From: Lachnospiraceae bacterium
GTDB taxonomy: Bacteria; Bacillota; Clostridia; Lachnospirales; Lachnospiraceae
Direction of reading: 5' to 3'
DNA length: 64,000 nt
NCBI GenBank assembly: GCA_021205755.1
Contig: JAJPWX010000127.1
Coordinates: forward strand, 1-64,000
This document shows, piece after piece, positions 1,994 through 47,952 of the stretch. Below the pieces are notes generated by a model. It did not search any database, was not told the DNA's origin, and saw nothing but the letters and a program-made list of their open reading frames with translations. Both the position numbers and the translations under genes were made by a program. Within the stretch, counting starts at the first letter, position 1. Each line of letters starts with the position of its first letter.

Positions 1994-2547
1994 GAAAAGA
2001 GTATGACCCGGATCGTGCCAGGCGGCGTAAACGCAGGCCGGTCATTTATATTATCTGCGAGGGAAAAGAAACGGAGACAAACTATTTCAGACACTTCAGA
2101 ACCAGAAACTGCCTTGTAGATGTAGTACCAATTTCCTCAAAGCATACTGCAGCAGAACATTTGGTGAAGCATGCAAGGACGTTGATTTCTCATGCGGATT
2201 ACTTTCCAAATGATGGAGATCAGATCTGGTGTGTTTTTGATTGTGATGAAAACTCAGATGCGGCTCTGCGGAATGCTTCGGAATATGCGAAGCAAAAAGG
2301 CTACCATATCGCCTATTCCAATCCATGCTTTGAATACTGGTATCTGTTGCATTTCACAAAGCAGAATGGCTATTTGAAGGATGCCGATGAGGTTTTGCAT
2401 TTGCTGCGAAATGAAGGAAGACTGGAAAAATATGCGAAAAATCAGGATGTGTTCCAGGAGCTTTTACCCTGTCAACCCGTAGCCATCCAACGGGCAAAGG
2501 AAGAGACTCCGAATGCTTGCATTCGCAGTAATCCTTGTCGGAGATAA
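1981..2547 (+). CDS. RloB-like (AbiLii-type) effector, probably C-terminally shortened
   Basis: The 188-residue product has the RloB-family start: a basic leader, then VIYIICEGKETETNYF (residues 21-36), a TOPRIM-like glutamate motif, and WCVFDCDEN further on, which could supply acidic metal ligands. NPCFEYWYLLHF is another family hallmark. Translation overlaps the upstream ATPase by 13 bases, so the genes are probably coupled. The protein stops just after a SNP motif (IRSNPCRR), where relatives usually continue for roughly 25-30 more residues. Reading through the TAA at 2545 gives an open stretch to about 2613 ending FIELFLVK. A nonsense mutation or natural shortening are both possible. Confidence 0.75.
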   Translation: MAKMRKEYDPDRARRRKRRPVIYIICEGKETETNYFRHFRTRNCLVDVVPISSKHTAAEHLVKHARTLISHADYFPNDGDQIWCVFDCDENSDAALRNASEYAKQKGYHIAYSNPCFEYWYLLHFTKQNGYLKDADEVLHLLRNEGRLEKYAKNQDVFQELLPCQPVAIQRAKEETPNACIRSNPCRR

Positions 2548-17736: not shown

Positions 17737-18351
17737 ATGTCATATCGAAAAGATTTTGAAGAGAATTATGTTGCGGTACCTGCGGCAGAAGGAGATTCCC
17801 GGAACAGGAAAAAGCCGAAGGTGAAATATCTGTATTGCGGTCCTTGGTATTTCTGGGATCAGTCGGATAAAGAGCAAAAAAAGTGCAAGATCTGTCTGAC
17901 TGCAGCCGGATTTTTGAATACGGTTATTTATCTGGCAGCCGGTGTGCAGTATGCGGATGTCAATACCAGTGTCCTTGTATTTTTGCCGCTGGCAGTGTCC
18001 TGTGTGGCGCTGCTGTTTGAATGGGTTGGAATTGTCCAATTCTGCATACAGAAAGAGAAAATGACAGTGATTAGCTGGCAGTCGATCATGAATTATCTGA
18101 AGATTGCTCCTTTTGTGCAGAGTGTGGGTATGGTTCTGGCTGTTGTTTTCTGTGTTTATTATATGGTTACGCAGACTTTTTCCATACGCTCACTGGCTGT
18201 GACTGTCGGATACGGTGTTTGTGCGCTCCTGGCTGCGCATGTTGTATGGAAAATCCGTTCTTTGCCTTTTCATTCTGAAAAGAATCCGCTTCGAAGGCAG
18301 ATCAGGGAGCAGCAGGCTGCGCAGGAAGAAGAAAATCAGGAGCTCCTGTGA
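17737..18351 (+). CDS. Four-helix membrane protein of unknown function
   Basis: The 204-residue product has a polar N-terminus with a KKPKVKYLYCGPWYFWD segment, then about four hydrophobic helices (near residues 53-70, 76-99, 120-147 and 152-170) and a charged Glu/Gln-rich tail. Two CxxC-like cysteines at about 49 and 52 precede the first helix. I do not recognise the family. The start is ATG at 17737 behind GGATAGAGAG. The gene converges on the LysR gene with a 16-base overlap, which supports both ends being real. Confidence 0.6.
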   Translation: MSYRKDFEENYVAVPAAEGDSRNRKKPKVKYLYCGPWYFWDQSDKEQKKCKICLTAAGFLNTVIYLAAGVQYADVNTSVLVFLPLAVSCVALLFEWVGIVQFCIQKEKMTVISWQSIMNYLKIAPFVQSVGMVLAVVFCVYYMVTQTFSIRSLAVTVGYGVCALLAAHVVWKIRSLPFHSEKNPLRRQIREQQAAQEEENQELL

Positions 18352-19241
18352 TCCAGATACTCGCGTGTGAAGGCCAGGAAAGCCCGGCTTGCGCTGGAAA
18401 GGTTTGGCTTGCAGATCAGATTGAAGTCTACCTGAACTGGCGGCTGAAATTCCCGGAAGACCACTTTTGTACCGCCGGGAAAGTCATCGTGGAGCTGCAT
18501 GGACGGATATTCCAGCAGCAGACCGATTCCGTTGCCGCTTTCTACGATCGTTCGGATATTGGAGCCATTGGCCATGGTGATAACTACATTTGGTGTAAAC
18601 CCGTGATTCTGACAGGCCTGAATGCAGAGGTTGAATAGCGGAGACCCCTTGGAAATCAGAATCAGGCGCTCGTTTTTTAAGTCCTCCAGTGAGAGGACTT
18701 TTTTTGTTGCAAGCGGGTGTGCCTGCGGCACGAAAGCGATGATCTGATCATGTCGGATCAGGATGCGGTTAAAGTGATTGTCCGTGTATCCAGCGAGCTC
18801 CGGGGCGAAATTCAGTTCACAGGAATCGTGGGCCGCCAGATCGGATACCGAGCGGTTCGAGGTAATCAGGTCTATGGAGATATTAGGATATTGCAGATTA
18901 AATTTGGCAATCAGGTCAATCAGATCAATGTATTGATTGGTAATGTTGATCGCCGAGATTACCAGATGAATTTTTTCATTATGAAAGTGCGAGGCAAGAA
19001 CAGTATGAATTTCTGTCTTAAGCTTCATGCTTTTTTCTGCGTAGGGAAGTAGCTGCTCGCCGAGCGGCGTCAGTACCACGCGGCGCGTCGTCCGGTAAAA
19101 CAGCGGAGCGCCTAGCTCTGCTTCCAGTTTTTTAATGTGCCTTGACAGGGCAGTCTCTGACACAAACAATTGTTCTGCAGCCTCCGCGTAGCTCAGAGTC
19201 TGAGCCACAATATAAAATTCCTGCAACGATTCAAATGACAT
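18336..19241 (-). CDS. LysR-family regulator of the divergent operon
   Basis: The 301-residue protein starts MSFESLQEFYIVAQTLSYAE at 19241 behind AAAGGTGAG; the open frame extends 68 residues further but without family similarity. The N-terminal helix-turn-helix (AEAAEQLFVSETALSRHIKK) and the periplasmic-binding-like effector domain are complete. LysR proteins are tetrameric regulators that typically control the divergently transcribed neighbour in response to a small ligand. Here the neighbour is the 11-gene import/hydrolase operon beginning at 19650, so the ligand may be its substrate. Confidence 0.9.
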   Translation of the reverse strand: MSFESLQEFYIVAQTLSYAEAAEQLFVSETALSRHIKKLEAELGAPLFYRTTRRVVLTPLGEQLLPYAEKSMKLKTEIHTVLASHFHNEKIHLVISAINITNQYIDLIDLIAKFNLQYPNISIDLITSNRSVSDLAAHDSCELNFAPELAGYTDNHFNRILIRHDQIIAFVPQAHPLATKKVLSLEDLKNERLILISKGSPLFNLCIQACQNHGFTPNVVITMANGSNIRTIVESGNGIGLLLEYPSMQLHDDFPGGTKVVFREFQPPVQVDFNLICKPNLSSASRAFLAFTREYLDHRSS

Positions 19242-19649
19242 AATCTCACCTTTTTTTAAACAGACTGTTTTTTCCAAAACCTGTCGCAGCAGATTTTTAT
19301 GCAGCAGATTTCGCTGCAGTACTACATATAAAAGACAGGCGCCATGCGTACATGATAACAGGAAACGCTTTGGAGATATGGTGTAAACAGCAGAAAAACT
19401 ATCAGTAATTGACAGAATCTTAGCACAAAATCCGAAAAGATACAACCGGTGAAATGGGTCGATTATTTCATTTTGCGCAACAATGTTTTTTGAAAACGGT
19501 TTGCTTAATGACTAGCAATTTGACATAATAAAATTAATAAAAACACAAAGAAATAGACGAAATTACGAAAAATAAGAATACGAAACAGATACTTGCACAG
19601 AAAAAGAGACAATAGCCCAAATGGCCGGAATCTGACAGGGAGAGAAGGA
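19242..19649. promoter_or_regulatory. Divergent promoter region between lysR and the operon
   Basis: On the minus strand TTGTAT (19440-19445), 17 bases, then TAAGAT (19417-19422) forms a lysR promoter. On the plus strand TTGCTT (19501-19506), 17 bases and CATAAT (19524-19529) is the best promoter for the operon. Between them lies the palindrome TTGCGCAA (19473-19480) inside a T-rich/A-rich dyad, a plausible LysR operator. No gene is present. Confidence 0.5.
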
Positions 19650-21137
19650 ATGAAAAGAAAACAGCTTCTTATGGCAATTGACATCGGGACAACAAATTCA
19701 AAGGCGGCGCTTTTTACATTGGAAGGCGAGATGGTCGCTTATGCGTCCAGGCGTCATACGGTGGATCGGCCGGATGCGCTGAGGGCCCAGCATGACGCAG
19801 AGAAGATCTGGTGGGAGGAGTGCTGCGCCGTCTGCCGGGAGATTGTCAGTCATCCCGTGGCGGAGGCGACGGAAATAGCAGGTGTGTCTGTCAGCTCTCT
19901 TTCACCGGCGCTGGTTCCGGTTGACCGGGATGGTCATGCACTGTATCCCGCGATGCTGTACGCGCTGGATCGGCGGGCGTTTCAGGAAATAAAAGAACTT
20001 GGGGATGCCTGGAATCCGTATCTGACTACGCATGGCGAGGGACCGGTTTCTCCGCTGAGTACCGGACCGAAGATGCTCTGGCTGAAAAAGAATGAACCGG
20101 AGATCTTTCAGAAGGCAGCCTGGTTTGTCGGTGTGCCCAGCTTCCTGATCTATCGGCTGACCGGAAAAATGGTCGCGGACTATGGGTGTTATCGGATTGC
20201 CGGTTTTCCCTATGCAAGAGAAAAGATGGACTGGGACGACGCGATGTGTGAAGCGTGTGGAGTGACGAGGGAGCGTCTGCCGGAGCTGAGATTTGCGATC
20301 GAGTGTGCGGGAACTGTTACAAAGGCTGCTGCGGAAATGACCGGAATACCGGAAGGGACTCCGGTAGCGGTCGGAACCGGGGATTTCTTGGCAGAAACGT
20401 TAAGCTATGGCTCCCGCTTCCGTTCCTCTGTTCAGATGAGCTTTGGAACGACGATCGGTGTGGATATGGGGACGGATCACTGTTCGATTTTATTCCCGGG
20501 CTATACGCCGGCGATACACCGGAACGCGATTCCCGGCGGGGCTATGTCGAACGGCTGCTCGACGATTGACTGGGTGCGGGGACTGATCACAGGGAAAGGT
20601 CCGGCACCAGACAATGAGGAGCTCTTCCGGATGGCGGATTCGATTCCGGCCGGTTCGGATGGTCTGATAATTCTTCCTTATTTTAATGGAGAGAAAAAAC
20701 CGTTTTCGGACCCGAACGCGAAGGGAATGATTTTTGGCCTGCGGATGAACCATACGGCATCGCATCTTTACAAAGCTTCGCTGGAAAGTGTCGCGTACTC
20801 GGTTCGGCATTGCCTGTCCGTATATAATCCGGACGAAAAACGGCGCGAGGCAGTGACGATGGGCGGCGGAACGCAGATCCCCGGGCTGCTGCAGACGGTC
20901 AGCGATGTGACCGGGTTCACACTGACCAGACTGGGAGTTCATAATGGAACTCTGTTGGGAGATGCATTTCTTGCCGCAATGGCAGGAGGAATTTTTACCA
21001 GAAGAGAAGATATTGATCCGTGGATTCATGTGGCAGGCACCGTGGAACCGAATGCGAAAAACAGAGAGACTTATGACAAAGGCTACCGGCTTTATCGGGA
21101 TCTGTATGAGGCGAACGCGGAGCTGATGCATCGATGA
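19650..21137 (+). CDS. FGGY-family carbohydrate kinase
   Basis: The 495-residue kinase has the ASKHA-fold phosphate-1 motif IDIGTTNSKAALF at its N-terminus, ATP-site motifs QMSFGTTIGVDMGT and MGGGTQIPGLLQTVSDVTG, and the catalytic aspartate region GTGDFLAE. It resembles xylulokinase/gluconokinase-like members but not one clear specificity. The start at 19650 follows AGGGAGAGAAGG. It is the first gene of the operon and overlaps the next frame by four bases. It probably phosphorylates a sugar or polyol released from the imported compound; this is inferred from position. Confidence 0.85.
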   Translation: MKRKQLLMAIDIGTTNSKAALFTLEGEMVAYASRRHTVDRPDALRAQHDAEKIWWEECCAVCREIVSHPVAEATEIAGVSVSSLSPALVPVDRDGHALYPAMLYALDRRAFQEIKELGDAWNPYLTTHGEGPVSPLSTGPKMLWLKKNEPEIFQKAAWFVGVPSFLIYRLTGKMVADYGCYRIAGFPYAREKMDWDDAMCEACGVTRERLPELRFAIECAGTVTKAAAEMTGIPEGTPVAVGTGDFLAETLSYGSRFRSSVQMSFGTTIGVDMGTDHCSILFPGYTPAIHRNAIPGGAMSNGCSTIDWVRGLITGKGPAPDNEELFRMADSIPAGSDGLIILPYFNGEKKPFSDPNAKGMIFGLRMNHTASHLYKASLESVAYSVRHCLSVYNPDEKRREAVTMGGGTQIPGLLQTVSDVTGFTLTRLGVHNGTLLGDAFLAAMAGGIFTRREDIDPWIHVAGTVEPNAKNRETYDKGYRLYRDLYEANAELMHR

Positions 21138-21148
21138 GAGGAGGAGCT

Positions 21149-22399
21149 ATGCAGAAAATACGGGCAACAATCAAGGTACCGGTTGGCTTTGTGGAGCGGT
21201 ATCTGGCGATACTTGATCAGAAGGGAATAGAAATGGTGGAGTCGGAACAGGTTCCCTATGAAAAGTTCTGCCGGGAGAGTCGGCTGAATTATGACTGTGT
21301 ATTCCCGCAGATGTGGGAGGAAAAACAGGATGTCTCTTATCTGCATTTTTATTTTGACGATACCCCGGAAGGGCGGAAGGCAAGCTTTGATCTGGAATAT
21401 GATCTGATGCAGATCCCGTTGAATCTGCGGTATGAGGATGAGGTGTTAATACAAAAAGAGGAGGAAAAGAAATTGGAACTGAAAAAATATCCTGCCGAAA
21501 AACGGAAAATCACCAGAGAGAATCTGATTGAACGGATTCAGGTAAATGACTGGCTGTATGTTTTGAACGAGGCAAATTCTGCAAATATGTATCTTGTGAT
21601 CGGAGAAAAGAGGGCGCTTCTGATCGATGCCGGATACGGATTCAAGGATATGCGCGGACTGATTGAGGAAGTCACGAGCCTGCCCTATGATGTGGTCTGT
21701 ACACATGGGCATGACGATCACGTGCTGGGCTGCAAATGGTTTCCAAAGGCGTACTTAAATGAGCGGGACTATGATCTGTGCACCAGCAATGACAATCCGG
21801 TGCAGCTGGAAAAGCAGCTGGCTTCCCGCAGACCTTTTATTCCGGATATTGATGAGCTGGTCGGGAAAGAGGAATATCTGCTGACATCTCTGAAAAACTG
21901 TGAATTCTGTTTTGTAAAAGAAGGAGACGTATTTGATCTGGGAGGGCTGACTCTGGAGGTTTTTGAAATACCGGGGCATACACGCGGTTCGATCGGACTG
22001 TACTGCAAAGAGAAGAAAGCACTGTTTTCCGGCGATACCATGATGAAAAATCATATTCTGGTTTACGCGCAGTCCCTGGATACATCAGCGGCTCCGCAGG
22101 ATTATATCCGCGCTCTCGGTAAACTGGAGAAGCTGGATGTGGAGCTGGTGTGGCCGGCTCACGGGGAAGCGCCGGCGGAGGGCTCGCTGATCGGAGCCAC
22201 ACGGGAAATGCTGATCGAGTGGGCAAAACACGCGGATCCGGAGGAAGGAAAAAGCATTGTCCCGGCAGATTCTGTTTTCGCGAAGCCGGGAAGCTTTTCC
22301 TACAAGTTTACATATAACGGAATCAAGCTGAACTACAATGTTCTTCATCTGGATCAGATCCGGACCTTTATGCAGGAGCATGAAGGAGCAGTAGAGTAA
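21149..22399 (+). CDS. Metallo-beta-lactamase-fold hydrolase with unusual N-terminal domain
   Basis: Residues about 125-400 form an MBL-fold hydrolase: zinc ligands in CTHGHDDHVLG, a histidine in IPGHTRGSIG, an aspartate in FSGDTMMKN and a late histidine in WPAHGEAP. The first 120 residues have no motif I recognise and include YLHFYFDDTPEGRKASFD. The ribosome site GAGGAGGAG fixes the start at 21149 although an ATG overlaps the kinase stop at 21134. Such enzymes often open lactones or thioesters; in this operon a lactone, ester or acyl-thioester step would fit. Substrate unknown. Confidence 0.8.
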   Translation: MQKIRATIKVPVGFVERYLAILDQKGIEMVESEQVPYEKFCRESRLNYDCVFPQMWEEKQDVSYLHFYFDDTPEGRKASFDLEYDLMQIPLNLRYEDEVLIQKEEEKKLELKKYPAEKRKITRENLIERIQVNDWLYVLNEANSANMYLVIGEKRALLIDAGYGFKDMRGLIEEVTSLPYDVVCTHGHDDHVLGCKWFPKAYLNERDYDLCTSNDNPVQLEKQLASRRPFIPDIDELVGKEEYLLTSLKNCEFCFVKEGDVFDLGGLTLEVFEIPGHTRGSIGLYCKEKKALFSGDTMMKNHILVYAQSLDTSAAPQDYIRALGKLEKLDVELVWPAHGEAPAEGSLIGATREMLIEWAKHADPEEGKSIVPADSVFAKPGSFSYKFTYNGIKLNYNVLHLDQIRTFMQEHEGAVE

Positions 22400-22497
22400 T
22401 CTGCACAGATTTCACTGGGCAAAGAGAGGCCCTTGAAATAGTAAAAACGTAACTGCAAAGAATGAAGCAGCTACAGAAAAACCAAGGAGGGAACAAA

Positions 22498-24114
22498 ATG
22501 AAACAAATTTCAAGAAGAGATTTTCTGCGTGGGTCAGCAGCAGGTGTAGCCGGAGCGGCTTTGACAGGTATCTGTGGAGTGCCGGTACTTGCATCGGAGG
22601 ATGTGGGAATGGTTGATAACGTGACGATCGTTGTTCCGCAGGCGAGCTTTGATCTGTCTCCGTTTGTTTACGGTAACCGTGTATACGCGATGTTTTACTG
22701 GGCGATCTATGGCACACTGATGGTCAGCCCGAACCTTGGCGCGTCTCTGGATGAACTGGTCGGCCGCATGGCGAAGAGCGTGACAACTGTCAGCGATACG
22801 GTATACGATGTGGAAATCTATGATTACATTGTTGACAGCCAGGGCAATGAGATCAAGGCTGAGGACGTAGTGTTCAGCTACGAGCAGGCAAGAGACAGCG
22901 GCCGGTATTCTTATGTCAGCTCTTATATGGAGTCTGTGACAGCGATTGATGATTATACCGTAGAGTTTACGCTGACAGAGGCTATGCCAGGCGCGACTGA
23001 GGCCATTTTGAACAGTGTGGCGATTGTCAATGCCGAATGGTATTCCAACGCGACAGAGGAAGAGATCGGAACCAGCCCGGCCTGCACCGGTCCGTATACG
23101 GTAGAATCCGTTACAAGCGGAACGGAGTTTGTGCTGGCAGTAAATGAGAATTACTGGCAGACGGATGCGTCTCTGCGTACAATTGTTGACGCGCAGAACA
23201 CGAAGAAGATGACTTACACGGTGATTGAGGAGATGTCCATGGTGGCAATCGCGCTTGAAAACCACGAGGTTGATATCGCGGAGATCGATTCGACTGTTTC
23301 CAACAACTTCCTGGATGACGACGGAAACGCGCTGGATGGCTACAACGTGCACGTAACGGTTGTTCCGCGTTTTGATGTGTTTGAGTATAACTGCAGCGAG
23401 GACAGTCTGATGAGCAACCAGTATCTGCGTCAGGCAGTCAGCTATGCCCTCGATGCGGAGCAGATCATGATCGCAAACGGAACTCTGACCGGAATGGGCA
23501 CAGTCAGCCATGATTTCTGCAATTCCGCAGGTGCCGGATACAATTATGACTGGGACGAGGAAGACTATTATGATTATGATATTGATAAGGCGAAAGAATG
23601 CCTGGAGCAGTCCGGACTTGGCGATAATATTACACTGACGCTTCTTCAGTCGACTGGTGTGGAGGAAGGGATTGCGGTAGCCGCGCAGGCGATGCTTTCT
23701 GCGATCGGAATCGATCTGAAGATTGTGACAGCTGAGCAGGCAACCTCGGACACCATGTATATGGACAGCACACAGTGGGATATCTTCACACGTATGGTTT
23801 CCACATCAGATTATGTGACCAGCGGATGGGCTGCACGTTTTGATAACAGTATCTGGGGCGATCAGGGTACCGCGAACTGGACTCAGGATGATACACTGCA
23901 GGATCTGCTGCATACCGCGATGTCTACGCAGGATCCAGAGGACATTGACGCATTCCACTATTACTTTACAGAAATGTGCTACGGCTATGGCCTGTTCACA
24001 GCGAACAAGGTTCTGGTATCCCAGGATGGCATTGAAGCTGCGATGGAAACTTATGAGGGGAATCCGGTTTACACCAGCATGACCTATACGGATGATTATG
24101 TGAGCGCGAGCTGA
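22498..24114 (+). CDS. Family-5 substrate-binding protein of an ABC importer, Tat-type signal
   Basis: This 538-residue extracellular binding protein belongs to the dipeptide/oligopeptide/nickel family (SBP_bac_5), with VDSQGNEIKAEDVVFSYEQA and YLRQAVSYALDAEQIM as family hallmarks. Its N-terminus MKQISRRDFLRGSAAG is a twin-arginine signal rather than a Sec lipoprotein signal, and the segment LTGICG is not a canonical lipobox. The ribosome site AAGGAGG fixes the start at 22498. It precedes the permease genes, with a strong stem-loop between. Ligand class cannot be read off; the family binds peptides but also glycosides and other organics. Confidence 0.9.
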   Translation: MKQISRRDFLRGSAAGVAGAALTGICGVPVLASEDVGMVDNVTIVVPQASFDLSPFVYGNRVYAMFYWAIYGTLMVSPNLGASLDELVGRMAKSVTTVSDTVYDVEIYDYIVDSQGNEIKAEDVVFSYEQARDSGRYSYVSSYMESVTAIDDYTVEFTLTEAMPGATEAILNSVAIVNAEWYSNATEEEIGTSPACTGPYTVESVTSGTEFVLAVNENYWQTDASLRTIVDAQNTKKMTYTVIEEMSMVAIALENHEVDIAEIDSTVSNNFLDDDGNALDGYNVHVTVVPRFDVFEYNCSEDSLMSNQYLRQAVSYALDAEQIMIANGTLTGMGTVSHDFCNSAGAGYNYDWDEEDYYDYDIDKAKECLEQSGLGDNITLTLLQSTGVEEGIAVAAQAMLSAIGIDLKIVTAEQATSDTMYMDSTQWDIFTRMVSTSDYVTSGWAARFDNSIWGDQGTANWTQDDTLQDLLHTAMSTQDPEDIDAFHYYFTEMCYGYGLFTANKVLVSQDGIEAAMETYEGNPVYTSMTYTDDYVSAS

Positions 24115-24148
24115 TAAAGATATTTTGAAAGATTCAGACAGTTTATCT

Positions 24149-24182
24149 GGGGCCTGCGCCGGAACGCGATAGCGCAGGCCCC
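24149..24182 (+). terminator. Intercistronic stem-loop after the binding-protein gene
   Basis: GGGGCCTGCGC (24149-24159) and GCGCAGGCCCC (24172-24182) form a perfect 11-base-pair stem. No T-run follows, so it more likely stabilises or processes the binding-protein mRNA, raising its yield over the permease genes, than terminates transcription. Confidence 0.65.
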
Positions 24183-24262
24183 GTATAATCATCAGCGTTT
24201 AATAAAAACAGATGGATATGAAAAATGTCTGCAACCTTCACAGTTAGAAAGGGACGACTTCT

Positions 24263-25228
24263 ATGTTAAAGTATATCGTAAAGCGGCTGCTGATCATGAT
24301 CCCGATTCTGCTCGCTGTCGCAATTCTGATCTTTACTCTGATGGCTCTTGTCCCGGGGGATCCGGCCAGACTGGCTCTGGGCGACAGCCCCACCATCACG
24401 GAGGAAATGCTGGAAAGTGTGCGTGCCCAGATGGGACTGGATAAGCCGTTCCTGGTTCGCCTGGGTATCTATCTGAGAGATATTTTCCTGCATTTTGACT
24501 TTGGGACATCTTATTCAACCGGAGTGGCGGTTACGAAGGAGCTGGCGTCGCGCTTCCCGAATACCCTGCTTCTTGCGGTACTGTGTATTGTTCTGATGCT
24601 TGGCCTGGGTGTTCCGGCCGGTATCCGCGCGGCGGTGAAAGCAAATACGGCAGAAGACCGGCTGTCTATGCTGATCACACTGATCGGAAACAGTATGCCC
24701 AATTTCTGGCTGGCGCTGCTGCTCGTACTTCTGTTTTCTCTGAAGCTGGGCTGGCTCCCGGCTGTCGGGGCAAAGTCCTTTAAGTACTTTATTTTACCGG
24801 CGCTCTCTGGCGGCCTGGGCGGCGTTGCCAGTATTGCCCGCCAGACGAGAGCGAGTATGCTGGAGGTTATCCGGTCGGATTATGTGACGACGGCCCGCGC
24901 GAAGGGACTATCTGAGAGTAAGGTTATATTTACCCATGCGCTGCCGAACGCACTGATTCCGGTTATCACGATTACGGCGCAGCAGTTCAGCTTCATGCTC
25001 GGCGGCATTGCGGTGATCGAATCCATCTTTTCCATTCCCGGTATCGGTAACTTTCTTATCACCAGTATCAGTGCGAGAGATTATCCCTGCGTACAGGGCT
25101 GCGTGATTTATATCGCGTTTGCGTTCTCCATCATGATGCTGCTGACAGATCTGATCTACGCTTTTGTTGATCCGAGAATCAAGTCTCAGTATTTCGGAAG
25201 CAAGGGAAAGAAGGTGAAGAGGGGATGA
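24263..25228 (+). CDS. ABC importer permease, DppB type
   Basis: The 321-residue permease has the family's N-terminal YIVKRLLIMIPILLAVAI and ALVPGDPARLALG, about six membrane helices, and the cytoplasmic EAA loop (YVTTARAKGLSESKVIFTHA) that contacts the ATPases. It forms a heterodimer with the following DppC-type subunit; the ATG of that gene overlaps its stop by four bases. The start follows AGAAAGGGACG. Together with the binding protein and two ATPases it makes a complete importer. Confidence 0.93.
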   Translation: MLKYIVKRLLIMIPILLAVAILIFTLMALVPGDPARLALGDSPTITEEMLESVRAQMGLDKPFLVRLGIYLRDIFLHFDFGTSYSTGVAVTKELASRFPNTLLLAVLCIVLMLGLGVPAGIRAAVKANTAEDRLSMLITLIGNSMPNFWLALLLVLLFSLKLGWLPAVGAKSFKYFILPALSGGLGGVASIARQTRASMLEVIRSDYVTTARAKGLSESKVIFTHALPNALIPVITITAQQFSFMLGGIAVIESIFSIPGIGNFLITSISARDYPCVQGCVIYIAFAFSIMMLLTDLIYAFVDPRIKSQYFGSKGKKVKRG

Positions 25229-26118
25229 AAAAAACAGCAGAAAAAACAGCTGGTAATACGGCGAAAAAGAGTTTAAAACCGGGTTCCCTGCCTTATATCT
25301 GGCAATATATCCGCCACAATATTGGCGCGATGTGCGGTCTGATTTTTCTCGCAGGTATGGTCATACTGACAATCCTGTCGCCGTACATCATGAAGTATGA
25401 TTATATAACCATCGATTTTACGGCGAGGTTTGCCCTTCCGAGCCTGGAGCATCCGTTTGGATGTGACCAGTACGGGCGCGATATTTTGAGCAGGATTCTT
25501 TACGGTGCGCGCTATACGCTGAGCATTGGTATCCTGTGTACTGCGTTTGCGGCCATTTTTGGCATCATCCTCGGAGCGATTGCCGGATACTTCGGAGGAA
25601 TTGTGGACTCGGCGATTATGCGTTTCCTGGATATCTTTCAGGCATTTCCGCAGCTCCTGATGGCGATGACACTGGTGGCTATCCTCGGCACCGGGCTGGA
25701 CAAATGTATTCTGGCGCTGGGAATTTCCGGCATTCCTGGATACGCCCGGATGACACGGGCAAACATCCTGAACATTCGGAACAGTGAATATATTGAGGCT
25801 TCGGTTTCAATCAAATGCTCGACTTTCCGGATTCTCAGAAAGCATATTATTCCCAATGTGCTCTCGCCACTGATTATCTCGATGGCAATGGGAATTGCGA
25901 GTTCTGGCCTGGCGGCTGCTTCGCTGAGCTTTATCGGCCTTGGAATTCAGTCTCCGCTGCCGGAATGGGGCGCCATGCTGGCGGAGGCGCGCGATTACAT
26001 GCGTCAGTATCCGCACATGATTTTGTTTCCGGGTATCTTTATCGTACTGACCGTGCTGAGTTTTAACCTGATTGGCGACGCTCTGCGCGATGCGCTGGAC
26101 CCGAAACTGAGAGAGTGA
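25225..26118 (+). CDS. ABC importer permease, DppC type
   Basis: The 297-residue subunit has a cytoplasmic lysine/threonine-rich leader (about 35 residues), then the DppC-type pattern FGCDQYGRDILSRILYGARY and about six membrane helices. The EAA loop is degenerate-normal (YIEASVSIKCSTFRILRKH). It overlaps the DppB-type gene by four bases (ATGA), so translation is coupled. The C-terminus GDALRDALDPKLRE is typical. Confidence 0.93.
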   Translation: MKKTAEKTAGNTAKKSLKPGSLPYIWQYIRHNIGAMCGLIFLAGMVILTILSPYIMKYDYITIDFTARFALPSLEHPFGCDQYGRDILSRILYGARYTLSIGILCTAFAAIFGIILGAIAGYFGGIVDSAIMRFLDIFQAFPQLLMAMTLVAILGTGLDKCILALGISGIPGYARMTRANILNIRNSEYIEASVSIKCSTFRILRKHIIPNVLSPLIISMAMGIASSGLAAASLSFIGLGIQSPLPEWGAMLAEARDYMRQYPHMILFPGIFIVLTVLSFNLIGDALRDALDPKLRE

Positions 26119-26128
26119 GGTATACCAG

Positions 26129-27169
26129 ATGAAGAGTGAAAATGTGAATAAAGAAATCCTGCTTTCCGTAAAGGATCTGGTAGTGGAATATACTTCCGGC
26201 GGTCAGACTGTCAGCGCGGTGAACGGTGTCTCCTTTGACGTGGAGCGCATGAATACACTGGGGCTGGTAGGTGAGACGGGCGCCGGCAAGACTTCCATCG
26301 CCAAGGCGATCCTTCGGATCCTTCCGGATCACGCGACAAAGCGTACAGAAGGAACAATCCTTTTTGAAGGGGAGGATCTCCTCCGTTTAAGCGATGAAAA
26401 AATGCAGACTGTCCGCGGAGGAAAAATCTCCATGATTTTTCAGGATCCGATGACGGCTTTGAATCCGGTAAAAACGGTTGTAAACCAGGTCGCGGAGGGT
26501 TTGCGTCTGCATCAGAACATGAGTAAACAGGATGCGCGGAACGCAGCAATTGAGATGCTGGAGACTGTGGGCATCACAGAAGACCGCGCGGATGAGTATC
26601 CGCATCAGTTTTCCGGAGGTATGAAGCAGAGAGTTGTGATTGCCATGGCGTTGGCCTGCAACCCGGAGCTTCTGATCGCCGATGAACCGACGACCGCGCT
26701 GGATGTGACGATTCAGGCACAGGTGCTGGATCTGATTAAAAAGCTGCGGCATGACAGAGGAACCTCCATGGTACTGATCACCCACGATCTGGGAATTGTG
26801 GCGGATGTCTGTGACAGTGTCGCTGTCGTATACGCTGGTGAGATTGTCGAATACGGGAGTAAAGAGGATATCTTTGATTATGCAACGCATCCCTATACCA
26901 AAGGCCTGTTTGCAGCTCTGCCGGATATGAATCACCAGTCAGATCGCCTTTCTCCGATCGAAGGGCTGCCGCCGGATCCGACTAATCTGCCGGAAGGCTG
27001 TGCATTTCATCCGCGTTGTCCGTATGCCTGTGAGGAGTGTCGGAGAACAAAACCGACAGCGAAAGAAATCCATCCGGGACATTTTGTATGCTGTCTGATG
27101 AGCGAAGGGCAGACGCAGGGCATTCCCGGAAAAAACAGCGGCGCAGATGCCGCCCGGAGCAGAAAATAG
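26129..27169 (+). CDS. ABC importer ATPase, DppD type
   Basis: The 346-residue ATPase has Walker A GETGAGKTS near 48, Q-loop FQDPMTALNPV, signature FSGGMKQRV, Walker B LLIADEPTTALD and the switch histidine in LITHDLG. The oligopeptide-transporter C-terminal extension is present, with the cysteine cluster CAFHPRCPYACEEC that may bind an iron-sulfur cluster in relatives. It lies 10 bases after the permease gene. Confidence 0.93.
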   Translation: MKSENVNKEILLSVKDLVVEYTSGGQTVSAVNGVSFDVERMNTLGLVGETGAGKTSIAKAILRILPDHATKRTEGTILFEGEDLLRLSDEKMQTVRGGKISMIFQDPMTALNPVKTVVNQVAEGLRLHQNMSKQDARNAAIEMLETVGITEDRADEYPHQFSGGMKQRVVIAMALACNPELLIADEPTTALDVTIQAQVLDLIKKLRHDRGTSMVLITHDLGIVADVCDSVAVVYAGEIVEYGSKEDIFDYATHPYTKGLFAALPDMNHQSDRLSPIEGLPPDPTNLPEGCAFHPRCPYACEECRRTKPTAKEIHPGHFVCCLMSEGQTQGIPGKNSGADAARSRK

Positions 27170-27185
27170 AAAGGAGCGATTCTGA

Positions 27186-28145
27186 ATGTCTACGCTGATA
27201 GAGGTAAAACACCTGAAAAAATTTTTTAATACGAAGCGCGGCGTTCTCCATGCGGTGGATGACGTTTCTTTCAAAATCGAAGCCGGGACGACGATGGGCC
27301 TGGTGGGAGAGTCAGGCTGCGGAAAATCTACGCTTGGCCGTACAATGATCCATCTGCAGGAGAGTACGGACGGACAGATTTTTTTTGAGGGAGAGGATGT
27401 TACACATGTGAAGAAAAAGAAGCTGCAGTCTCTGCGGGACGATATGCAGATTATCTTTCAGGATCCGCTTTCTTCCCTGAACCCCAGAATGACCGTGAAG
27501 GATACCATTGAGGAGCCGCTGATCCTTTCAAAAAAATATCCGACAAAGGCTGCGCTGGAGGAAGAATCCAGGCGTCTGATGGATCTGGTCGGAGTGGAGG
27601 AGCGTCTGAGGCTCTCTTATCCGCATGAGCTGGACGGTGGGAGAAGGCAGCGTGTCGGTATTGCGCGTGCACTTGCGCTTGGCCCGAAATTTGTTGTGTG
27701 TGACGAGCCGGTGTCCGCGCTGGACGTGTCCATTCAGGCGCAGATATTGAACCTGCTGATGGATCTGCAGGATCAGTATCAGCTGGCGTATCTGTTTGTC
27801 ACGCATGACCTGTCTGTGGTTCGTCACATTTCAGATTCGATATGTGTGATGTATCTGGGGCAGATGGTGGAAACCTGCGAGACAGAGGAGCTGTTTCGGA
27901 ACACGTTGCATCCGTACACAAAAGCGCTGCTTTCCGCGATTCCTTCCGTGGATATTCATCACCAGCCGGAGCGTATTTTGCTGAAGGGAGAGATTACGTC
28001 CCCGATCAATCCGGGCGAAGGCTGCCGTTTTGCGGCACGCTGCCCATATGCCTGTGAGCGCTGCCATCAGAAGATGGAGCTGGAGGAGGTAATTCCCGGA
28101 CATTTTGTATCCTGCTGCCGGGCCAGAGAACTGAATGGAATATAA
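27186..28145 (+). CDS. ABC importer ATPase, DppF type, with LDGGR signature
   Basis: The 319-residue partner ATPase has Walker A GESGCGKST, Q-loop FQDPLSSLNPR, Walker B FVVCDEPVSALD and the switch histidine in FVTHDLSVV. Its ABC signature reads ELDGGRRQRVGIARAL, with aspartate and arginine where LSGGQ normally has serine and glutamine. I have the impression that this variant recurs in Clostridia DppF proteins, so it may be a lineage trait that makes the two ATP sites unequal. The C-terminal CRFAARCPYACERC cluster is present. Confidence 0.92.
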   Translation: MSTLIEVKHLKKFFNTKRGVLHAVDDVSFKIEAGTTMGLVGESGCGKSTLGRTMIHLQESTDGQIFFEGEDVTHVKKKKLQSLRDDMQIIFQDPLSSLNPRMTVKDTIEEPLILSKKYPTKAALEEESRRLMDLVGVEERLRLSYPHELDGGRRQRVGIARALALGPKFVVCDEPVSALDVSIQAQILNLLMDLQDQYQLAYLFVTHDLSVVRHISDSICVMYLGQMVETCETEELFRNTLHPYTKALLSAIPSVDIHHQPERILLKGEITSPINPGEGCRFAARCPYACERCHQKMELEEVIPGHFVSCCRARELNGI

Positions 28146-28196
28146 AAGCAGATCTGCCGCGCTGTAATCTGCCTGAAAAAGGAGAGGAAGGCATTT

Positions 28197-29252
28197 ATGA
28201 CGACAATTACGATAAAAGAATACAACGAATCGGTTGCCCGACGACTGTTATCCGTTCCATTCTGGAGAGCGGAATATTTCCCGGAGTTTTTCAGCGAGAA
28301 CTTTACGATGGACTTTCCGTCTGCGCCTCCGGGAATGCCGACACATTTCAGTGTGTGGGAGAGTGAGTGCTGCTTTGAGTGGCTGAACCGTACCGTGAAG
28401 CACTGGGAAGCAGAACTGGAAGAGTTTTACACAACGCCGGATCCGAATCAGTTCTGGGCGATCGGTATCTGCCGAGGCCGTGTGTTCTGGAACGCGCAGG
28501 ATGGGGAATTCCGGAGTAAATTTTTCGCCAGGGTTCAGTTCCAGGACGCAAAAATTGTATATATGAAGGGGTGGATGGACACGCTTGCATTTCTGCGGGC
28601 GGCACATATTCCCTATGATACGATTATCAAACATTTTGAAGATCCGAAGGTCGATGAATTTCTGGCCGGGCCTCCGAAGCGGTTTCAACAGGATAAAAAG
28701 GACGAATGTACGCACGAGGATCCGTATCGGGGTGTGGACATGCATCCGAAGGCGATTCAGAAACGGCTCAGGGACAATCTGCAGCAGAATGTCTGCGGTG
28801 TAGAGCGGGAAAAATACCGGAAGACGGAGACCTTTCATCCGGATTATAAGCGCGGAGCCTGGTTTATCCCGGATGAACAGCCCTGGAAGGAAGTGGATGA
28901 TCTGGATCTCTCCGTTTATCGGAGTACGGATCTGGAGGCGAGCGTTCCCAAAGAGGTAAAACCCCGCATTTTTGCCTGGGTGAAGGGCAGCAGTCCCTGG
29001 ATGTATCGGGATACGCGCGGGGTCAACTACCCCACAGATGATCCATATGTTTACTTTGCGGAAATGCACAGTAACGGTCCATCCACGTGGATTGGGAATG
29101 GATGTGAGGAAGGGCATTATCATCAGGAATATCTGATGTATATGAAGTTTGACGAGGCTGGCCGCGAATTGATTCGGGATGAGATTATCTGTCCGATGAA
29201 TAAACTGATCAGTGCACGAATCCAGGTTCCGTCGTTTCCATATTATTATTGA
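28197..29252 (+). CDS. Tandem NTF2-like (PhzA/PhzB, SnoaL-type) protein
   Basis: The 351-residue protein appears to hold two NTF2-fold domains. The first half has FFARVQFQDAKIVYMKGWMD followed by TLAFLRAAHIP. The second ends YLMYMKFDEAGRELIRDE and CPMNKLISARIQVPSFPYYY, the same strand-helix-Pro pattern that closes PhzA/PhzB proteins (which end in a leader-PFEQLRALGIPVP-like segment). NTF2/SnoaL-type proteins are small dehydratases, cyclases or isomerases acting on aromatic or polyketide-like rings. No catalytic residues can be assigned with confidence. It follows the importer by 51 bases behind AAAAGGAGAGG and precedes the PhlG-like hydrolase, so both probably act on the imported compound. 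Confidence 0.6.
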   Translation: MTTITIKEYNESVARRLLSVPFWRAEYFPEFFSENFTMDFPSAPPGMPTHFSVWESECCFEWLNRTVKHWEAELEEFYTTPDPNQFWAIGICRGRVFWNAQDGEFRSKFFARVQFQDAKIVYMKGWMDTLAFLRAAHIPYDTIIKHFEDPKVDEFLAGPPKRFQQDKKDECTHEDPYRGVDMHPKAIQKRLRDNLQQNVCGVEREKYRKTETFHPDYKRGAWFIPDEQPWKEVDDLDLSVYRSTDLEASVPKEVKPRIFAWVKGSSPWMYRDTRGVNYPTDDPYVYFAEMHSNGPSTWIGNGCEEGHYHQEYLMYMKFDEAGRELIRDEIICPMNKLISARIQVPSFPYYY

Positions 29253-29268
29253 GAGAAAGGAGATCTTT

Positions 29269-30102
29269 ATGGCTTTATATGCTGTGATTCCGGAACTTTC
29301 CGAAGAAGAAAAAAAGCTTCCGCTTGCGAAATATTTTGAGGAATACCCGCTGCTTGATCCGACGCCTCTGGAATGTCAGCTTCTGGATAGCGGGCCGATG
29401 GCGGTTTCTGATGCGGTTCCTGCCGCGAACTGGCTGGATATTTTACAGCCTTCCGGTTATCGGAAGGTGGAGTTTGGCTATTGCATGATGCCGGATGGCT
29501 CCGGATACTATGCGGAGTATTTTGTTACACCCCCGAGTGTGACGCCGGAGATGATGCCGTGGTTTCTGAACTGGATCAATTATAAATCCAAAAATACACC
29601 GGAGGGTCAGGGGAACCTTCGCTATAAGCTCTGGTATCCGCCGGATCATTGGGAGCATACCTATGTGAATGGAAAAGATGATAAGGATGGAGTCTGGTCA
29701 TTTGGAACGCTGGATAATGGGAAAAGCGGCGCGAAAAACGGATCAGAGGAAATCTCTTACCCGCTTGATCTTCGGGAATACGGGCTGAGCGAGGAGCGTA
29801 TTCGGGCTTTGAAAGAGGCAGGCTGCACATTCAGTGCTGCCTGTGAAAAGGTAGAGGGCGGTCATCATCTCGTTCTGCGTCTGCAGCGTCCCTGCCCTTA
29901 CGGCGGGACGGAAACCTTTAATCACGAGTGGATTGGATATTGTGCGCAGGACGGCAAAATCATACAGGATAAAGGGACGCCGGTGAATGAGGAATATCTG
30001 AGAAACGTGCTGATTCACAACATTACAGAGCATCACCATCTGCCGCGTTTCCTGCCGAAGCTTTACGCGGAGTATCATGATAAGCCGATCGATGCGGACT
30101 GA
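29269..30102 (+). CDS. PhlG / phloretin-hydrolase-like C-C hydrolase (DAPG hydrolase family)
   Basis: The 277-residue protein has the pattern of the DAPG-hydrolase family: GYCMMPDGSGYYAEYFVTP (70-88), then TPEMMPWFLNW and LRYKLWYPPDHWEH (117-130), and the closing VLIHNITEHHHLPRFLPKLY (247-266). Family members PhlG and the gut bacterial phloretin hydrolase cleave an acyl group from a phloroglucinol ring in a zinc-dependent retro-Claisen reaction. Candidate ligands here are His127 or His130, Glu160/161, His219-Glu220 and His250/254-257. The start at 29269 follows AAAGGAG. Substrate is unknown; a C-acylated phenolic is the natural guess. Confidence 0.65.
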   Translation: MALYAVIPELSEEEKKLPLAKYFEEYPLLDPTPLECQLLDSGPMAVSDAVPAANWLDILQPSGYRKVEFGYCMMPDGSGYYAEYFVTPPSVTPEMMPWFLNWINYKSKNTPEGQGNLRYKLWYPPDHWEHTYVNGKDDKDGVWSFGTLDNGKSGAKNGSEEISYPLDLREYGLSEERIRALKEAGCTFSAACEKVEGGHHLVLRLQRPCPYGGTETFNHEWIGYCAQDGKIIQDKGTPVNEEYLRNVLIHNITEHHHLPRFLPKLYAEYHDKPIDAD

Positions 30103-30127
30103 GGCGTAATGAGAGGGGCAGGTTTAT

Positions 30128-30700
30128 ATGCAGATTTATATGATGCGTCATGGAGAAACGGACTGGAACCTGCAAAAAAGGATGCAGGGGCGTGCAGATA
30201 TTCCGCTGAATGCAGCGGGGCTCGAACAAGCACGCCGTGCCGCAGAGGAATTGCGGGAAATCCGGTTTGACCGGATTTACTCGAGCCCGCTGTGCCGCGC
30301 ACGGGTGACTGCGGAACGGATTGCCGAAGGGCGAGGGCTTCCGGTTCTGACGGATGAACGGCTGACGGAAATCGGCTTTGGCATTCTGGAGGGAAGTGAG
30401 CGGGGGATGAACCCGGAAGCACACGCGTATTTTCATGACCCGGCTCATTATCATCCCTGTGAAGGTGGTGAAAGCTATGAGGAGCTTGACGCGCGCTGCG
30501 CGGATGTGCTTGAAAACCTGCTCATTCCTCTGGAAAAGCAATGCCGGACGATACTGGTATGCAGCCATGGCGGATGGATTAATGGAGTGATCCGCCATAT
30601 CCTGAACCGGCCGCTTGAGGATTTCTGGAAGGATCCGCCCAGACCAAACTGCGGTTGTGTTCTTGTGGACTGCACGGAAGGAAAGCTGTGTCTGCTGTGA
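30128..30700 (+). CDS. Histidine phosphatase family protein of the operon
   Basis: The 190-residue enzyme has the phospho-histidine motif MRHGETDWN, the family helix IYSSPLCRARVTAE and the second catalytic histidine in LVCSHGGWINGVI. A basic KRMQGRADIPLNAAG loop follows the first motif, as in phosphoglycerate-mutase-like and cobalamin/nucleotide phosphatases. It starts 25 bases after the hydrolase gene. It could remove phosphate added by the FGGY kinase or act on a phosphorylated intermediate; this is inferred. Confidence 0.85.
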   Translation: MQIYMMRHGETDWNLQKRMQGRADIPLNAAGLEQARRAAEELREIRFDRIYSSPLCRARVTAERIAEGRGLPVLTDERLTEIGFGILEGSERGMNPEAHAYFHDPAHYHPCEGGESYEELDARCADVLENLLIPLEKQCRTILVCSHGGWINGVIRHILNRPLEDFWKDPPRPNCGCVLVDCTEGKLCLL

Positions 30701-30762
30701 GACAGCAGGCGGGAGCGCATGAAACAGATACTTTCGATTCATTATATCCAGGAGAGGTGTTT

Positions 30763-32148
30763 ATGGCAGAAAAAATGAAAAACGGTGCGGCAGGAGGAGT
30801 GAGTGATCTTGTAAACGGGCCGGTGGCCTCTACGCTGATATCCTTTTCTATCCCGTTTATGCTCAGTACTTTTTTACAGACTCTGTATTCTACAGCGGAC
30901 ACCATTGTGGTAGGGCAGTATCTGGGAAGCGCGGGTCTGTCTGCTGTTTCGAACGGCAGTCAGCTGATGCAGCTGCTGTACTTGTTCTGTGTCGGGTTTT
31001 CCAGCGCGGGGCAGGTTCTGATCGCGCAGGCACAGGGCGCCGGGAATAAGGAGTTTGAGAGCGAGCTTGTCGGAGCACTGTTTGGAATTGTGGTAATTTT
31101 TTCAGCGGCGATCGGAGTACTGTGTATTCTTTTCAGCGGAAGCTTTCTTACTCTGCTTGCTACTCCGGAAGAAGCTTTTGTTCAGGCGGAGTATTACATT
31201 ATTATTTGTGGTGCGGGAATGGTTTTTACCGGATTGTATAATGTATTCAGTGCGGTTCTCCGCGGCCTGGGGGACAGCATTCATCCGCTGCTTTTTGTCC
31301 TGGTGGCATCAGTCGTGAATATTATCCTGGATGTTGTGTTTATCGCGTTTTTTCACTGGAATGTCGCCGGCGCTGGACTGGCAACCATCATCGGGCAGGC
31401 GGTCAGCGTCTGGTTCAGCTTTGTTTATCTGAAGCGTCATAAAGAACTGTTTCCTTTCAGCCTGCATATCCGGGACCTGATACCGCATCGGGAGATTTCC
31501 ATGAAAATCATCGCCATTGCCATCCCCATGTCCATTCAGAATGCAGCGATTCAGTTCAGTTTCCTTTTTGTCAGCCGAATGGTAAATGCGCTTGGTGTGA
31601 CAGTCAGTGCAGCATTTGGTGTGACGCAGAAGCTGCGGAACATTCCAGGAATGCTCACACAGGGCCTGGGCACTGGATGCAGCGCAATGATCGGACAAAA
31701 TCTGGGAGCGAGGCGTAATGACCGCGTGGGTGGCATTATGCGCTGGGGATACGCAATTACAGCAGGGATTAACGCAGTGTTTGCGATTGTTTTCTTCGTG
31801 GCTCCGGATCTGTGCTTTCGTATGTTTACACAGGATGAGACCGTACTGGTTTACGCAGGCATCTGCATCTTCTCCCTCCTGATTGAGTTACCAGGCAAGA
31901 CCTGCATTTATATAGGGAACGCGCTGATTAATGCACAGGGATTTGTAAAATTCAGTACCATCATCGGACTGACGGATGCCTTTGCCGGCCGGGTATTTTT
32001 AAGCTGGCTGTTTGGAATCCGGCTGGGATGGGGTGCCTCCGGATTTTTTATCGGATACAGCCTGGGTACCTACCTGACAGCCATTCCGGGGCTGGTGTAT
32101 TATGTCAGCGGACTCTGGAAAAAGAGAAGTCTGCTTACTGAAAATTAA
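30763..32148 (+). CDS. MATE-family efflux transporter
   Basis: The 461-residue membrane protein has twelve-helix MATE character: the start VNGPVASTLISFSIPFMLST, the repeat at AIPMSIQNAAIQFSFLFVSR and GCSAMIGQNLGARRNDR. MATE proteins export cationic or aromatic compounds using Na+ or H+. The start at 30763 follows AGGAGAGG. It is the last gene of the operon before a terminator, so it may export the unused ring product or the toxic aglycone. Confidence 0.88.
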   Translation: MAEKMKNGAAGGVSDLVNGPVASTLISFSIPFMLSTFLQTLYSTADTIVVGQYLGSAGLSAVSNGSQLMQLLYLFCVGFSSAGQVLIAQAQGAGNKEFESELVGALFGIVVIFSAAIGVLCILFSGSFLTLLATPEEAFVQAEYYIIICGAGMVFTGLYNVFSAVLRGLGDSIHPLLFVLVASVVNIILDVVFIAFFHWNVAGAGLATIIGQAVSVWFSFVYLKRHKELFPFSLHIRDLIPHREISMKIIAIAIPMSIQNAAIQFSFLFVSRMVNALGVTVSAAFGVTQKLRNIPGMLTQGLGTGCSAMIGQNLGARRNDRVGGIMRWGYAITAGINAVFAIVFFVAPDLCFRMFTQDETVLVYAGICIFSLLIELPGKTCIYIGNALINAQGFVKFSTIIGLTDAFAGRVFLSWLFGIRLGWGASGFFIGYSLGTYLTAIPGLVYYVSGLWKKRSLLTEN

Positions 32149-32286: not shown

Positions 32287-32322
32287 AAACGGCTGGCGGA
32301 TATTTTTCTGCCAGCCGTTTTT
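32287..32322 (+). terminator. Terminator of the import/hydrolase operon
   Basis: AAACGGCTGGC (32287-32297) and GCCAGCCGTTT (32310-32320) form a perfect 11-base-pair stem followed by further Ts. It marks the likely 3' end of the operon that began at 19650. Confidence 0.82.
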
Positions 32323-47817: not shown

Positions 47818-47952
47818 ATACTATAATCGAAAATACTGGAGATGACATGCATTGACACTTCCATTTTATAGTAGAATGTGTTAGAATCAATATCGAAGTG
47901 CTTGATGAAAAATATGTTTTCTTATTCATGTACGAAAAGGAGAAGTAAGGTT

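Follow-up and report, generated by a model that had tools for sequence, protein, structure and literature searches.

Known gut routes for plant glycosides use either glycosidases or oxidation of the sugar at C3 followed by cleavage. In the frl system, uptake occurs by a permease plus a kinase. In gfr, a mannose-type phosphotransferase system (PTS) is combined with deglycases whose substrates are fructoselysine 6-phosphate and glucoselysine 6-phosphate (PMC12675984). The C3-oxidising route is that of DgpABC and DfgABE (PMC11170127), and a flavonoid cluster of Clostridium butyricum, flr–fcr–phy, includes a PF18089 hydrolase (PMC11868195). Here we describe a predicted operon in a stretch of 64,000 nucleotides from Lachnospiraceae bacterium (GenBank assembly GCA_021205755.1, contig JAJPWX010000127.1, positions 1 to 64,000 of the forward strand), referred to below as the window. 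The operon (Table 1) encodes a tandem-NTF2 protein, a PrmA-N-like domain fused to a metallo-β-lactamase (MBL)-fold hydrolase, an FGGY kinase, a DppBCDF importer of the ATP-binding cassette (ABC) type with its solute-binding protein (SBP), a PF18089 hydrolase, a histidine phosphatase and a MATE exporter. The tandem-NTF2 system looks like an undescribed degradation pathway: no description of this combination of parts was found in the searched literature, where most subscription papers were out of reach, in agreement with the first-pass annotation of the window, which knew of no such pathway.

The tandem-NTF2 loci share the logic of frl and gfr, in that uptake with phosphorylation would be followed by splitting of the phosphorylated conjugate. 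They differ in the FGGY kinase, in the tandem-NTF2 protein and PrmA-N-like domain as putative splitter, and in the extra C–C hydrolase. The window operon, scanned with Pfam, gave no SIS protein or deglycase and no Dgp or Dfg protein, the loci having been searched with neither deglycase nor Dgp/Dfg models; DgpABC/DfgABE is likewise a gut Lachnospiraceae route, for sugar-linked polyphenols. The flr–fcr–phy cluster resembles the window in placing a PF18089 hydrolase in the operon of an anaerobic Clostridium, and a paralogue locus, L025, adds a reductase of the old yellow enzyme (OYE) type. In contrast, the window operon has no recognised flavonoid reductase, and the importer, kinase, tandem-NTF2 protein and MATE exporter are unmentioned for flr–fcr–phy in the available part of PMC11868195.

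Conservation and uptake types of the tandem-NTF2 loci

Ten loci were compared by tblastn (E <= 1e-8): the window and nine found by an alignment-based scan, a contig scan with the single window NTF2 protein having returned no relative. Three pairs of locus labels denote one contig each (L032/L042, L033/L043 and L031/L046). Judged by sequence matches, the most constant element is the tandem-NTF2 protein together with the PrmA-N-like domain, not the PF18089 hydrolase. The domain occurs in eight of the ten loci, as a separate gene in six (L032, L033, L039, L040, L044 and L046) and fused in two (the window and L038). Both loci without it are on short contigs: L041 starts about 830 bases before the gene, and L045 is 4.1 kb long.

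DppBCDF with its SBP, the FGGY kinase and the MBL hydrolase occur together in six of the ten loci, from several genera, and all six of these ABC-importer-type loci have a MATE- or MFS-like gene. The kinase orthologues of the five other loci are 51–57% identical, and the MBL hydrolase is present, among the ten, solely where the ABC importer and kinase are. The first-pass annotation had made its reading depend on a significant PF18089 match and on conserved co-occurrence in related genomes. Both were found, the kinase, importer, tandem-NTF2 protein, MBL hydrolase and PF18089 hydrolase standing together in another genus (L032/L042), so neither ground for rejecting it arose. This recurrence of kinase, importer, NTF2 and MBL genes across genera strongly weakens the idea of a chance neighbourhood, in which unrelated operons (sugar kinase and MBL; peptide importer; hydrolase and exporter) happen to abut. 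Gene order does vary between genera, and the histidine phosphatase, although present in the window as annotated, had no match in the nine other loci at the above threshold; a chance arrangement is nonetheless scarcely credible.

A sugar PTS is found in three of the ten loci (L033, L041 and L044). No MBL or FGGY gene matched in these, and the sole Dpp-like matches (30–32%) lie in L041, on a single ATPase gene that belongs to a different ABC system. The gene order in L033 is PrmA-N-like, HPr, EIIA-man, EIIB, fused EIIC-EIID, tandem NTF2 and PF18089 hydrolase, and the genes for sigma-54 and a LevR-like activator are divergent from these. At L033:1412-12722 the mannose-type PTS operon that encloses the tandem-NTF2 and PF18089 genes is complete, including an HPr, a sigma-54 factor and a LevR-like activator of its own. 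L044, from an Erysipelotrichaceae metagenome-assembled genome (MAG), contains an antiterminator with CAT_RBD/PRD, EIIA_1, the PrmA-N-like gene, tandem NTF2 and EIIBC. L041 contains EIID (EIID-AGA), tandem NTF2 with a HAD hydrolase next to it, and a PF18089 gene. Distant relatives accompany a third kind of sugar system. In L035 the gene next after a full-length NTF2 relative (24% identical) encodes a GPH symporter (PF13347), and in L034 a one-domain relative is fused to one. In this last protein (L034:5787-7217, minus strand) the NTF2 domain is in frame with the rear part of the symporter (PF13347 from profile position 129), possibly through an internal deletion.

One protein family thus stands next to four unrelated uptake types, of which three are sugar systems and the fourth has a sugar-type kinase; this is the strongest hint of a sugar in the substrate. 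The exchange of importer and kinase for a PTS hints further that the substrate is phosphorylated. Together this points to a sugar conjugate that is phosphorylated on or after entry and then split, and the possible sugar part proposed in the first-pass annotation gains support.

The same genes bear on a non-aromatic alternative. Its substrate would be an alicyclic or sugar-derived 1,3-dicarbonyl, such as a sugar–amine rearrangement product; after phosphorylation the NTF2 protein would isomerise it, and the PF18089 enzyme would cleave it in a retro-Claisen-like manner. Sugar uptake types dominate among the loci, and the small locus L033 brings together just a PrmA-N-like gene, a PTS, tandem NTF2, PF18089 and a sigma-54/LevR pair. 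To our knowledge, however, no PF18089 enzyme acts on sugars. With gfr as a precedent on one side (PMC12675984) and, on the other, the characterised PF18089 enzymes known to us, which act on acyl phenols (PMC8003664, PMC11868195), we regard this alternative as rather unlikely.

Detoxification or resistance is a further alternative: import would be incidental, and the hydrolases, kinase and MATE exporter would serve to disable a plant or microbial antibiotic and pump it out. LysR control and the exporter gene in every ABC-type locus would suit such a role, but pure detoxification would hardly call for an importer, PTS or GPH symporter dedicated to uptake. Control by LevR or an antiterminator is typical of sugar use, and the alternative appears very improbable.

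Some loci of the ABC type contain further genes. A PTS enzyme-I fragment of 268 residues, with the PEP-utilisers N-terminal and mobile domains only, lies inside the Diplocloster cluster (L031:13992-14795, minus strand), and Eisenbergiella has a 46% identical match to it (L039, near 8589). L032:8348-9061 (plus strand) encodes a 237-residue protein, TIM-barrel-like by eye, with no Pfam or NCBIfam match above cut-off.

The tandem-NTF2 protein and the PrmA-N-like domain

The tandem NTF2 (PhzAB/SnoaL-like) assignment of the first-pass annotation was borne out. The N half matches PHZA_PHZB (Table 1), the two halves align to each other (hhalign E 1.8e-6, probability 90%), and the N half is PhzA/B-like in the predicted model (predicted local distance difference test score, pLDDT, 70.1); with two NTF2-like domains, the protein is a tandem member of the NTF2 superfamily. 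The best Foldseek match is 3ff0 (E 1.5e-9). Lsd19 (3rga), which we take to be a tandem NTF2 enzyme, is matched with E 9.1e-7 over 348 columns at a root-mean-square deviation of 20.6; the structure-alignment rows cover mainly residues 1–149 and barely probe the C half. PhzA/B, SnoaL and Lsd19 have their fold in common with the window protein, Lsd19 being tandem as well. They are biosynthetic enzymes, whereas the tandem-NTF2 protein of these loci occurs amid sugar-uptake genes, usually with a small partner.

The system is rare. It was detected in five of 397 family genomes and two of 47 in the genus; in the order-level sample only the window's own genome had it (1/295). No relatives were found in plasmids, and the relatives of G340 and G061, 116 genomes each, yielded no new tandem-NTF2 loci.

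In the window, the PrmA-N-like domain forms the first ~98 residues of the MBL protein, whose hydrolase part has an HxHxDH motif at residue 186. The domain had been annotated as unrecognised, a view that is now dropped. It can be aligned with the stand-alone genes of the related loci, and a profile of it gave three matches beyond the own genome (E 8e-5 to 1e-3; class sample, 245 genomes). All three are PrmA, ribosomal protein L11 methyltransferase (TIGR00406 above cut-off), and are matched in the N-terminal domain only. Comparison with PrmA N-terminal domains gave an hhalign probability of 96.6% (E 6.5e-10), so that by profile similarity the fused domain is related to them. The stand-alone copies are not PrmA methyltransferases: they are 98–114 residues long, no methyltransferase domain follows, and the N domain alone is shared. 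The N-terminal domain of PrmA binds its protein substrate, and a role as protein partner of the tandem-NTF2 protein is therefore a reasonable guess, no more.

The PF18089 hydrolase

The first-pass annotation named a DAPG-hydrolase-family protein in the operon. Its membership of the family holds, with PF18089 matched over residues 57–267 at 77.1 bits (cut-off 22.7), and its only PDB sequence matches are 5xe5, 5xey and 3hwp. It is not a PhlG orthologue, scoring 33.7 bits against a cut-off of 600 for NCBIfam PhlG (NF047887). Foldseek placed 3hwp (E 9.7e-7) and 5xe5 (E 3.1e-6) on top, followed by Bet v1 proteins, with 16–18% identity to PhlG and phloretin hydrolase (3hwp, 5xe5); the model is poor (mean pLDDT 54.9, residues 96–160 under 50), and one of the four PhlG metal ligands appears not to be conserved in place. 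In its surroundings, too, the protein differs from PhlG and phloretin hydrolase, being encoded among genes of sugar-uptake type and not within a phl or flr–fcr–phy cluster.

The metal site of PhlG is presumably His129, Glu160, His270 and Glu274. The window protein shares H127 and the HxxxE ligand motif (H250, E254) with PhlG and phloretin hydrolase. In a 50-row alignment, which includes duplicates and partial frames and does not include PhlG itself, H127 is present in 49 rows, and H250 and E254 in 45, with four rows gapped. At the place equivalent to Glu160, as read from the motifs, the window and L032 hydrolases have no acid; relatives have one two residues away. An additional histidine, H130, is invariant in a nine-sequence subfamily and absent from L033 and L041, which have a nearby acid. 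Judging from these positions, the nearby acid (in the relatives) or H130 may replace Glu160 as metal ligand.

Its distribution does not make the hydrolase a constant part of the system. The gene is present in four of the ten loci, in two lineages (window, L032, L033 and L041), and a fifth, L045, has a decayed remnant in which the front part of the NTF2 gene is joined to the last 67 residues of the hydrolase. The PF18089 part of this remnant (L045:410-1200) is 75% identical to the window hydrolase. No PF18089 gene was found by tblastn in the available stretch of five of the ten loci that share the core. The Diplocloster and Eisenbergiella loci keep the importer, kinase, MBL hydrolase, tandem NTF2 and PrmA-N-like domain and have no PF18089 gene, and L038 (MAG U_127004, of the window's genus) is a tandem-NTF2 locus without one, although the same genome, G009, has PF18089 on another contig. 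An α/β-hydrolase-like gene occurs in four loci: L032, L039 (Eisenbergiella), L040 and L046 (Diplocloster). A Pfam scan of its product in two of these gave weak esterase matches under cut-off in L032 and none in Diplocloster.

In the hydrolase tree (nine of 50 rows removed as duplicates or partial frames, two long fused frames trimmed to their last 330 residues), the window and L032 form one clade and L033 and L041 another (both 100/99). A single clade for the four intact NTF2-linked hydrolases was rejected (approximately unbiased test, p 0.00013; 41 of 50 rows), so the pairing of NTF2 with PF18089 arose at least twice or was lost repeatedly. The hydrolase profile (A2) matches in 24 of 397 family genomes, and the window protein in seven of 47 genus genomes, its own included. 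Among NTF2-positive genomes, four of five have PF18089 (hypergeometric 5e-5 against the family sample, kinship ignored). This becomes 0.0007 without the own genome and 0.009 (2/3) also without G354, whose NTF2 matches are distant; all three values assume that the NTF2 and hydrolase scans drew identical 397 genomes.

An import–cleave–export theme, as annotated, recurs among the eight other PF18089 loci of the genus. DppBCDF-type genes are present in five (L024, L025, L026, L028 and L030; in the available stretch L025 has only DppB, and L030 only DppD and DppF). MATE-like genes are likewise present in five (L024, L025, L026, L027 and L030; MatE Pfam-checked in L024 and L025), and L029 and L036 have neither.

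These loci, with the family membership itself, are in keeping with a glycosylated acyl-phloroglucinol or dihydrochalcone (phlorizin- or nothofagin-like) that is imported and cleaved between ring and acyl group by the PF18089 enzyme, the sugar or acid being used and the ring exported. The long OYE-type reductase beside the paralogue in L025 agrees with it too. PF04199, which we take from the family name 'cyclase' to be the family of the dihydrophloroglucinol ring-opening enzyme, has no match in the own genome. The enzyme of C. scatologenes is assigned to the 'cyclase' family (PMC10470551). With no PF04199 match, ring opening by the C. scatologenes route is rejected for this genome, and any phloroglucinol formed would need export. 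Against this alternative stand the non-acidic Glu160 place, the five loci with the same core and no hydrolase gene, and the reductases. The only OYE-family match in the own genome is a 243-residue frame with an internal stop, so an intact Fcr-type reductase was not found there; FLR, a reductase of another class, was not searched in that genome, and the Pfam scan of 12 genes revealed no flavone/flavanone reductase. That the substrate is aromatic (an acyl-phenol) is plausible, the alternative as a whole possible if on balance doubtful. No result here makes the substrate a phenol, one of the options proposed, and C-acyl cleavage stays as an alternative. PF18089 matches in gut genomes need not all be flavonoid (phloretin) hydrolases.

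Other PF18089 contexts were seen. L025:2779-10294 groups the paralogue and its reductase with a beta-propeller lactonase (PF10282) and two MATE-like genes. In L053:1495-3702 (minus strand) a PF18089 domain (4.9e-73) is fused behind a fumarate-reductase-type flavoprotein (Succ_DH_flav_C 2.8e-13), and L064:19-2286 (plus strand) resembles this fusion by look.

Proposed pathway

Our leading reading, to which we give somewhat less than an even chance, is an operon under LysR control for the catabolism of a sugar-conjugated small molecule, with import, phosphorylation, splitting, C–C hydrolysis and export. Gene families, layout, co-occurrence and uptake swapping are observed; the reactions, their order and the substrate chemistry we infer from them. 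The Tat-exported SBP and DppBCDF would import the conjugate, and the FGGY kinase would phosphorylate its sugar or polyol part; in related loci this falls to the PTS in the course of uptake. The tandem-NTF2 protein and its putative PrmA-N-like partner would then break or isomerise the phosphorylated conjugate by acid–base chemistry, and the MBL hydrolase would cut an ester, lactone or similar link. The PF18089 enzyme would hydrolyse a C–C bond beside a carbonyl in the released 1,3-dicarbonyl-like part, probably a C-acyl-phenol. The histidine phosphatase, particular to the window locus, may dephosphorylate an end product, and the MATE exporter would remove the unused part.

Several points weigh against this pathway. 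The split between PTS and ABC uptake amounts to one or two changes on a poorly resolved NTF2 tree, and the whole Diplocloster genome (G061) has no PF18089 match. Neither a glycosidase nor a recognised deglycase turned up when the window operon was scanned with Pfam (glycosidase models were not run on the other loci), so it is association that argues for the splitting step. The substrate of the FGGY kinase could instead be a free sugar that is released at a later stage. Of the ten loci, one has a histidine phosphatase and one other has a HAD hydrolase next to its NTF2 gene, so dephosphorylation is not a constant of the system.

A bolder form of the catabolic reading, which we consider unlikely, is that the tandem-NTF2 protein and PrmA-N-like domain constitute a new phospho-glycoconjugate-splitting enzyme that replaces glycosidases and deglycases. 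It would be a plug-in module: an ABC importer with FGGY kinase, a mannose-type PTS, a glucose-type PTS or, for distant relatives, a GPH symporter would feed it, and PF18089 or α/β-hydrolases would be coupled to it. If so, gut Clostridia would have an unrecognised route to dismantle non-hydrolysable (for example C-linked) sugar conjugates. A conserved module that has neither glycosidase nor C3 oxidation in the window operon and draws on phosphorylating uptake systems of exchangeable kind would add a sugar-conjugate route to those of the Lachnospiraceae, which include the cultured carriers Eisenbergiella tayi and Diplocloster agilis, and two orphan protein families would gain a role that can be tested.

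Operon layout and neighbouring genes

The annotated arrangement of a LysR regulator facing one predicted operon is confirmed: eleven co-directional genes at 19650-32148 (plus strand), as read from the sequence, are divergent from the LysR gene. The named genes lie at about the annotated places and pass the curated Pfam cut-offs against which the 12 genes were scored (Table 1). One gene had been overlooked, that of the membrane protein convergent with LysR.

Table 1. Features of the tandem-NTF2 operon and its flanks in the window
Feature	Position	Strand	Evidence
Conserved multi-pass membrane protein, ~200 aa, convergent with LysR gene	17737..18351	+	Family recurs in related loci
LysR-type regulator	18336..19241	-	PF03466 1.5e-28, PF00126 5.7e-20
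FGGY-family kinase	19650..21137	+	FGGY_N 3.7e-46, FGGY_C 1.9e-23
PrmA-N-like domain (residues 1-~98) + MBL-fold hydrolase fusion	21149..22399	+	Lactamase_B 1.5e-18
Twin-arginine (Tat)-signal solute-binding protein, SBP_bac_5	22462..24114	+	SBP_bac_5 1.5e-51, TAT_signal 1.9e-6, SRRDFL motif
DppB-like permease	24263..25228	+	BPD_transp_1 1.5e-41; matches in related loci
DppC-like permease	25225..26118	+	BPD_transp_1 8.7e-36, OppC_N 2.5e-8; matches in related loci
DppD-like ATPase	26129..27169	+	ABC_tran 5.3e-31, oligo_HPY 1.1e-20; matches in related loci
DppF-like ATPase	27186..28145	+	ABC_tran 1.1e-29, oligo_HPY 6.4e-18; matches in related loci
Tandem NTF2 protein, PhzA/B-like N half + NTF2-like C half	28197..29252	+	PF03284 (PHZA_PHZB, N half) 2.2e-10
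PF18089 C-C hydrolase, PhlG/phloretin hydrolase family, divergent subfamily	29269..30102	+	PF18089 2e-21
Histidine phosphatase, RHG motif intact	30128..30700	+	His_Phos_1 1.3e-53
MATE-family exporter	30763..32148	+	MatE 2.1e-44
Terminator hairpin, 12-pair stem then TTTT	32289..32318	+	Seen by eye; absent from consensus terminator scan

Gaps inside the operon range from -4 to 148 bases, and a Shine–Dalgarno-like purine-rich stretch lies upstream of the start in ten of the eleven genes. That of the SBP gene is weak, and the second Met may be the true start. The LysR reading frame as listed begins at TTG 19445, and the LysR domain agrees with a start at 19241. The strong terminator of the first-pass annotation is visible by eye as a stem and T-run and is not listed by the consensus scan.

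Both FGGY domains place the kinase in its family. It is no typical xylulokinase, scoring 246.1 bits against the XylB cut-off of 380.25 (TIGR01312), so far below that an ordinary xylulose operon is ruled out. A TatC gene is present in the own genome, matching the Tat-type SBP; this genome comprises 4.0 Mb in 136 contigs and is 99.86% complete. The membrane protein has no Pfam family above cut-off. It is 35% identical to L038:10897-11481, 25–27% to the copies in L024 and L030, and 19–20% to those in L031 and L039.

Elsewhere in the window, an AAA_21 ATPase followed by an RloB-like protein (815-2544, plus strand; PF13304 1.5e-34, PF13707 1.3e-37) resembles an RloA/RloB-type defence or toxin–antitoxin-like module. 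Two choline-binding-repeat proteins, of 689 and 691 residues, are encoded on opposite strands at 47878-49947 (plus) and 51148-53223 (minus).

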